Source: an uncultured Acidimicrobiales bacterium
GTDB lineage: Bacteria; Actinomycetota; Acidimicrobiia; Acidimicrobiales; SHLQ01
Reading direction: 5' to 3'
NCBI GenBank assembly: GCA_938015295.1
Contig: CALLQB010000059.1
Coordinates: 1-64,000, forward strand
DNA length: 64,000 nucleotides
Made by a program: the position numbers and the translations under genes. Position 1 is the stretch's first letter; the number at the start of each line of letters is the position of its first letter. The notes under the pieces are model-generated. The model was not told where the DNA came from. It did not search any database and was given only the letters and a program-made list of their open reading frames with translations. Below are positions 8,632-22,171 of the stretch, piece after piece.

Positions 8632-9114
8632 CTAGATCTCCATGGGGCAGCTCTGCTCGGGGGCAAGCACCTGCGTCAGACGACCAAGGCCAAGAAAGCT
8701 GGCTACCAGCACCGACAGGTCCATGATTTCTGGATCGTCCCACTCAGCTCGGAAGCGGACCCAGAAGTCGTCGTCCAACGCAAGGTGATCGATCGCGAAC
8801 AGTTCGGCGTACTCGATGGCGACTCGCTCGCGACTAGTGAACCGGTCGCTGGTACGCCATTCGGCCACTGCCTGGTAGTCGTCTTCGGTCAGTCCGTGCT
8901 CCGCTAACTGCGCAGCCCTTGTTCCAAGTCACGTAAGACACTGATTGATCTGAGCGATACGCATTCGCACCAGTTCGCGCTCGCGTACAGCTACCTGCGA
9001 TTTCTCGTACGCCTTCGCACTGAACGAGCCCGCAACCCCACCCATAGCGGGGTTCGCACCCCACATACGGATGATCTCGTTCTCCGGTCCATCAGGAATA
9101 GTGATTCGAGCCAT
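8632..9114 (-). CDS. carboxymuconolactone decarboxylase/AhpD-like family protein, predicted selenoprotein (CxxU) read through TGA at 8929-8931
   Basis: ORFs 8929-9186 and 8632-8868 lie in the same frame, separated by one TGA: MARITIPDGP...RIAQINQCLT[TGA]LGTRAAQLAEHGLTEDDYQAVAEWRTSDRF. The TGA replaces the second Cys of the CxxC motif. Hairpin follows. Confidence 0.78.
8898..8916 (-). promoter_or_regulatory. candidate bacterial SECIS hairpin
   Basis: 12 nt after UGA: GCUGCGC-AGUUA-GCGGAGC, a 7-position stem with one mismatch and a G in the second loop position. Confidence 0.5.
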
Positions 9115-9186
9115 AGCCAACGCTAACCCACACGCCGCCCGCTCTCCCAAGAAATGCACCCGCTCTCCGAGAAGTACAGTGTGCAT

Positions 9187-20236: not shown

Positions 20237-22171
20237 TTACCTTCTCGCCGCGGCGAGCGGCTCGACGCGGATGGACGCTGCTTTGAATTCAGCGGTTCCT
20301 GACTTTTTGTCCCACGCATCGTTGGTGAGCACGTTGGCATCGACCAGGTCGGGGAAGTGAAAGGTAGTGAAAGTGAGCCCTTCGACCAACGAATCGTCGA
20401 TACGGATGCGCATCTCGACCGACCCGCGGGGCGACGACACCACGGCCATATCACCATCGGCGAGACCGAGACGCTCGGCGTCGATGCGATGCATATCGAG
20501 CGCGTCGCCGTAACGAATCGGCGAACTGAAGCCACCCGATTGCACACCGGTGTTATACGAATCGAGCGCCCGCCCTGTAGTGAGGCGAAGGGGAAATTCG
20601 TCGGTGAGTTCTTCCTGCGGCCCCTGGTGGGTAACGGGCACAAATGGTGCCGGAGCCCGACCTTCGAGATCGTCGGCCCAGAGCCAGCCGTGGAGAAATG
20701 GCGACCCAGGATGATCGAGTGATGGACAGGGCCACTGCAGCCCGCCGGTTTCTTCCAAACGGTCCCAGCTCATGCCTTGGTGCATCGGCGAAAGCGTGCG
20801 CAGTTCATCCCATAGCTGCTGAGGGTCGGGTTGTCCCCAGTCGTGTCCCATGCGCTCGGCAAGAGCGAACAGGATGTCGATGTCGTGACGCGCTTCGCCT
20901 GGCGGCGGCACGGCCGCCCGACTCCGCTGCACCCGTCGCTCAGATGAGGTGACGGTGCCGTCGGACTCTGCCCAGGCCACCGACGCAGGAAACACGACAT
21001 CGGCCATTTCGGCGGTGCGAGTAAGGAAGATGTCCTGCACAACCAGTAGGTCGAGACCCTCGAGAAGTTTGCGAGCGTGCTGAATGTCGGCCTCAGAGTC
21101 GGCAGGGTTTTCGCCCAATACATACGCCGCTTTGATCTCGCCACGTTCCATCGCTTCGAACATCAACGTGAGGTGCAGGCCCGGTTTGGGATTGAGATCG
21201 ATGCCATAGGTCTCTTCGAACTTGCCGCGCGCTGCGTCGTCGTCGATGTTCTGGAAGCCAGGCAACTTGTTGGGAAGCGCACCCATGTCGCCGCCACCCT
21301 GGACGTTGTTTTGTCCACGCAGGGGCACAAGGCCACTCCCCCACTTACCAATGTGTCCGGTAAGAAGCGCCAAGCTGCAAAGAGCCAAAACGTTATCGAC
21401 CGCGTTGTGGTGTTCAGTGATGCCGAGCGTCCACAGAATTTGCGCCTTCTCGGCGGTGGCATAGTCGTGTGCCAGTTCGCGAATGACATCGACAGGAAGA
21501 CCAGTTAGTTGGCTCGTGAACTCAAGCGTGTACGGCTCAACAGCTTCTTTGTACGCGTCGAAACCTTGGGTCGAGTGGGCGATGAACTCTTCGTTCGCGA
21601 GGCCAGCGGCAATGATCTCGCGACCGAGGCCATTTGCGAGAGCAACATCGCTACCAAGGTTGAGGCCCATCCAAACGTCGGCGAATTTGGCCGACGACGT
21701 GCGACGCGGATCGACGGCGAACATCTTGGCGCCATTGTCGATGCCCTTCATCAGGTGATGGAAGAAGATCGGGTGTGCGTTACGGGCGTTCGAGCCCCAA
21801 AGCACGATGAGATCGGTTTCTTCGATCTCGGTGTAGGAGGAGGTTCCGCCGCCTGCACCAAACACTGTCGCCAGACCGACGACCGAAGGAGCGTGTCAAG
21901 TTCGGTTGCAAGAGTCGATGTTGTTCGACCCCAACACCACCCGGGAAAATTTTTGCGCCGCGTAGTTCATCTCGTTTGTCGCCTTCGAGCAACTGAACAT
22001 CGCAAAACCGTCTGGGCCGTGCTCGTCGAGCACCTTGGCGAAGCCACCGGCGACCCGATCGAGCGCTTCGTCCCAGGACGCCGGGCGGAGCGTGCCGTTC
22101 TCGCGAATCAGCGGAGTAGTGAGGCGCTTCTTGGGGAGGAACTGCTGTGTTCCCCATTTCGACTTCGACAC
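20237..22171 (-). CDS. fdhA: formate dehydrogenase catalytic (molybdopterin) subunit, predicted selenoprotein read through TGA at 21896-21898
   Basis: ORFs 21896-22261 and 20237-21865 are in one frame separated by one TGA: SNNIDSCNRT[TGA]HAPSVVGLATVFGAGGGTSSYTEIEETDLIVLWGSNARNAHP. Position equals the Sec140 context of E. coli FdhF (CARVUHGPSVAGL). Start at GTG 22171 with AGGGG upstream. Confidence 0.88.
21867..21883 (-). promoter_or_regulatory. SECIS hairpin of fdhA
   Basis: 12 nt after UGA: GUCGUC-GGUCU-GGCGAC, 6-bp stem with a GGUCU loop like the apical loop of E. coli fdhF SECIS (GGUUGCAGGUCUGCACC). Confidence 0.75.

Follow-up and report, generated by a model that had tools for sequence, protein, structure and literature searches.

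Introduction

A 2005 study of the Sargasso Sea (PMC1088965) described selenoproteins of the CMD-domain, AhpD-like kind that carry a CxxU motif; they were counted in the GOS data in 2008 (PMC2398784), and a 2026 catalogue holds both a PF02627 CxxU and a TIGR01926 CxxU entry (PMC13188914). In these proteins selenocysteine (Sec) occupies the position of the second Cys of the motif, a SECIS lies just downstream of the UGA and homologues with Cys exist. The closest solved relative of the protein described here, both in sequence and in fold, is PA0269 of Pseudomonas aeruginosa (PDB 2o4d, 2ijc). The proton relay of AhpD and PA0269 consists of Glu, Cys, His/Tyr, Cys and His, and PA0269 has weak peroxidase activity (PMC3141380).

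Here we analyse a gene in a 64,000-nucleotide stretch of DNA (the window) from an uncultured Acidimicrobiales bacterium, whose genome comprises 5.0 Mb in 140 contigs. It belongs to the same superfamily as the catalogued CxxU proteins and resembles them in the placement of the predicted Sec, in the SECIS and in having Cys homologues. Whereas the catalogued lists are made up of marine metagenome reads and other taxa, the present subfamily occurs in Acidimicrobiales and Chloroflexota.

Results

A CMD-domain gene split at an in-frame UGA

Ordinary ORF calling divides the gene into two short frames (8632-8868 and 8929-9186), as the initial annotation had noted. When the TGA at 8931-8929 of the minus strand is read through, positions 9114 to 8632 form a single frame of 160 codons, and translation bore out the proposal that the frame is intact on both sides of the TGA in a CLT[TGA]LGTR motif (Table 1). 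The joined protein scores 45.6 bits against Pfam CMD (PF02627; cut-off 23) in a match that spans the TGA, and coding is kept on both sides of it at 71-81% identity among relatives.

Position 9114, which the initial annotation had given as the end coordinate, is most likely the ATG start of the gene as judged by alignment, because a MARI..P.G beginning is common to the relatives and stop codons occur just upstream in several of them. The ORF start at 9186 lies too far upstream. Other in-frame stops (TAG, TAA) in some relatives were considered as recoding sites and rejected, as their positions lie upstream of the true start.

Table 1. Positions of the features discussed, numbered along the window.
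Feature	Position	Strand	Details
CMD/AhpD-like predicted selenoprotein CDS	8632-9114	-	160 codons (UGA as Sec) and TAG stop; translation, Pfam CMD, MARI start
In-frame UGA, codon 62, predicted selenocysteine (C59-L-T-U62)	8929-8931	-	Only TGA or TGC/TGT at the column in 70 sequences of the order
Cys59, first residue of CxxU	8938-8940	-	TGT; Cys in 70/70 sequences
Arg66, at the position of the AhpD proton-relay His	8917-8919	-	AGG; Arg in 70/70; His55 in PA0269
Putative bSECIS hairpin, 12 nt after UGA	8898-8916	-	GCUGCGC 8916-8910, loop AGUUA 8909-8905, GCGGAGC 8904-8898; covariation in TGA forms
Thioredoxin-like protein	TGA 13004-13006, frame ~12674-13324	+	In-frame TGA in WFYAPH[U]PTC (UxxC)
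fdhA, formate dehydrogenase alpha subunit	TGA 21897-21899, frame ~22234-20237	-	In-frame TGA, CNRT[U]HAPSV

The second motif position is either TGA or Cys

Of 297 genomes searched within the same order, 92 held relatives; we extracted 70 loci, including that of the window, in which the codons of both motif positions were read. The first position is Cys (TGC/TGT) throughout, and the second is TGA in 43 loci and a Cys codon (TGC/TGT) in the remaining 27. The claim that TGA replaces the second Cys of the family's CxxC thus holds across the order. The initial annotation had regarded a residue other than Cys at the TGA column as evidence against Sec; no such residue was found among the 70 loci or in four Cys homologues from outside the order (Streptomycetaceae, Sphingomonadaceae), all of which carry TGC. 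Within the order the TGA forms span many families. Ten named loci, six from uncultured Acidimicrobiales and four from Chloroflexota, all have TGA, some of the six being the same species as loci from the order search. On a tree computed with the trait column masked, six changes between Sec and Cys forms are needed.

The genome of the window also holds a second CMD selenoprotein paralogue (C134:1866-2318) with a CDV[U]QNTR motif, about 46% identical and accompanied by a hairpin of its own.

A hairpin downstream of the UGA is tied to the TGA forms

The hairpin GCUGCGC-AGUUA-GCGGAGC, said in the initial annotation to start 12 nt after the UGA, lies exactly there, and the asserted agreement in spacing with fdhA is found too, the predicted fdhA hairpin (GUCGUC-GGUCU-GGCGAC) also beginning 12 nt downstream of its TGA. 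The window's own stem forms six of seven pairs, with one G.G mismatch, and its folding z-score is a moderate -1.9, computed on a single sequence.

The signal becomes clear in the alignment of the TGA forms. Here 92% of cells are paired in a stem of 7 bp that closes a 5-nt loop, a value matched by none of 500 shuffles, while registers slid along the sequence give 20-49%. Changes on both sides of the stem occur at six of the seven pairs (44 such cells), and almost every TGA form has G as the second base of the loop. At the same positions the Cys forms are paired in 34% of cells, which is the shuffle level. Mean folding energy fails to separate TGA from Cys forms (-13.7 versus -12.4 kcal/mol), whereas position-specific pairing does, and neither the window nor the gene region gave an Rfam match relevant to the hairpin. 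Since the protein is constrained in both groups and the pairing in the TGA forms only, the contrast points to a function of the RNA that is tied to the UGA, and we conclude from this comparative pattern that the hairpin is a bacterial SECIS under selection.

Four loci (L074, L075, L079 and L086) make up a divergent TGA clade (RIAVINQCPI[U]LDTRSAS) in which the hairpin retains part of the stem only; the SECIS of this clade may be of a different shape.

Sec machinery and other predicted selenoprotein genes

Absence of Sec-decoding genes would, according to the initial annotation, have spoken against the assignment. A genome search found a tRNA-Sec (TCA anticodon, 71 bits), SelA and SelB adjoining each other on contig 34, and SelD. 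The SelD of this genome is apparently a selenoprotein too, with a Sec-type UGA in LTEFSHGAG[U]GCK.

Of 35 genomes with a TGA form, 32 contain SelA, as against 10 of the 26 whose only forms carry Cys (Fisher p = 1.4e-5, kinship not counted). The three TGA-form genomes that lack it are assemblies of 520-750 contigs, two of which contain SelD. As Sec form and SelA yield only five phylogenetically independent pairs, too few to reach significance, we take this co-occurrence as support and not as proof.

The gene had been labelled the third selenoprotein of the window, in keeping with the two further genes in Table 1. Besides fdhA, the thioredoxin-like UPTC gene has a strong predicted hairpin downstream of its TGA and is likely the window's second selenoprotein; its product is probably a lipoprotein.

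UGA codon 62 is very probably read as selenocysteine

Codon alignment, hairpin and genome content together make it highly probable that UGA codon 62 is read as selenocysteine and that the gene encodes a selenoprotein. If the TGA were instead a true stop, in a pseudogene or in a CxxC gene that was misread in sequencing, a single base change from TGC or TGT would suffice, and the splitting of the gene by ORF calling would follow. However, the TGA is shared with 42 other sequences of the order and with Chloroflexota, which rules out an error or pseudogene in the window; the coding downstream is conserved and the hairpin covaries only where the TGA is present, and we consider a true stop extremely improbable. 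We give just as little credence to a UGA read as another amino acid (for example Trp or Cys) or generally reassigned in this genome. The frame would indeed be open whatever residue stood at the TGA, but the genome holds a tRNA-Sec with the full Sec machinery, the in-frame TGA of three window genes falls at redox or known Sec positions and not at Trp positions, and Trp never appears at the TGA column in relatives.

Fold and active site

The AlphaFold model (53 sequences) has a mean pLDDT of 92.7 and is all-helical and AhpD-like. Its best PDB match is PA0269 (E 3.5e-6, TM 0.73/0.81), beside which stands the AhpD-like Atu0492, followed by other peroxidase-related proteins and the debrominase Bmp8. 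In sequence PA0269 matches with an E of 6e-11, and its Glu and two-residue redox motif align with the present protein, although it has CxxC where the latter has CxxU. AhpD of M. tuberculosis (1gu9, 1knc) is a marginal structural match (E about 1) that shares the CMD-type helical hairpin, the CxxC and the upstream Glu.

Glu47, which is invariant, Cys59 and Sec/Cys62 of the relay are kept. The relay His that follows the second Cys at a distance of four residues (His137 in AhpD, His55 in PA0269) is absent, and Arg66 takes its place in all 70 sequences, Sec and Cys forms alike. The middle His/Tyr position (His132 in AhpD, Tyr50 in PA0269) is Thr61 here. With an invariant Arg in place of the relay His, peroxidase activity is not to be assumed, and on the basis of these two exchanges AhpD peroxidase chemistry may be inapplicable. 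The Cys-x-x-Sec pair speaks for a redox reaction of the thiol/selenol type, of which peroxidase activity is one possibility only.

Relation to catalogued families

The protein combines a PF02627 domain with CxxU, as in the PF02627 CxxU entry of the 2026 catalogue (PMC13188914). Among the models that define the catalogued lists, only the broad Pfam CMD reaches its cut-off on the present subfamily. The TIGR01926 peroxidase-related enzyme model, which underlies the AhpD-like CxxU entry (PMC13188914), scores 31.9 against a cut-off of 81.8. The best NCBIfam match, NF053654 (YciW-related (seleno)protein), aligns over the CxxU helix and beyond, but its 59.1 bits against a cut-off of 310 do not make the protein a member; NF041047 (GSU3128 (seleno)protein) and NF041238 (AhpD-related (seleno)protein) give 17.3 against 110 and 12.6 against 175. 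A literature search for Acidimicrobiia and selenoproteins, with most subscription papers outside its scope, returned nothing relevant. The kind of protein has been known since 2005, and the gene is a new member of it, perhaps of an unlisted subfamily; that subfamily is set apart by model cut-offs and may already be among the Sargasso or GOS reads.

Discussion

In the reading we prefer, SelB and tRNA-Sec would decode UGA codon 62 at the bSECIS hairpin 12 nt downstream, yielding a protein of 160 residues that belongs to the CMD superfamily and has an all-helical, AhpD-like fold. Cys59-x-x-Sec62, which opens the active-site helix, would form a redox couple in which Sec probably attacks a peroxide, a disulfide or another oxidised substrate. 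Cys59 would then resolve Sec as a selenenylsulfide, which the cellular thiol or thioredoxin system might reduce.

Whether this selenoprotein is a peroxidase in particular is, from sequence features, an evenly balanced question. A rather unlikely alternative is that it is an AhpD-fold CxxU oxidoreductase without peroxidase function, acting for instance in reductive dehalogenation, like Bmp8, or in the reduction of a metabolic intermediate. The presence of Bmp8 among the structural and profile matches points in this direction, as do the replacement of the AhpD His by an invariant Arg in both Sec and Cys forms and the dehydrogenase/reductase genes that adjoin two plasmid-borne Cys homologues. Against it, Bmp8 is distant (15% identity) and the nearest solved relative, PA0269, is itself a weak peroxidase (PMC3141380). 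The neighbourhood of the Sec clade does not help the case: no neighbouring gene is conserved, the HD-GYP, methyltransferase and regulator genes beside the window's gene not being retained in relatives, and the context therefore gives no substrate. More speculatively still, the proteins could be an AhpD-fold subfamily, unlisted and comprising Sec and Cys forms, that has the signature Glu-(11 residues)-C-x-x-U/C-x-x-x-Arg with an invariant Arg for the relay His and whose chemistry is other than AhpD peroxide reduction.

Reading UGA codon 62 as selenocysteine extends the use of Sec in AhpD-fold proteins to a further lineage, the Acidimicrobiales, and the locus is a clean example of how ordinary ORF calling breaks a selenoprotein gene into two pieces. 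The Cys forms, which have no SECIS, serve as an internal control against which the RNA signal stands out with unusual clarity, and the change from His to Arg raises a testable question about the function of these proteins.
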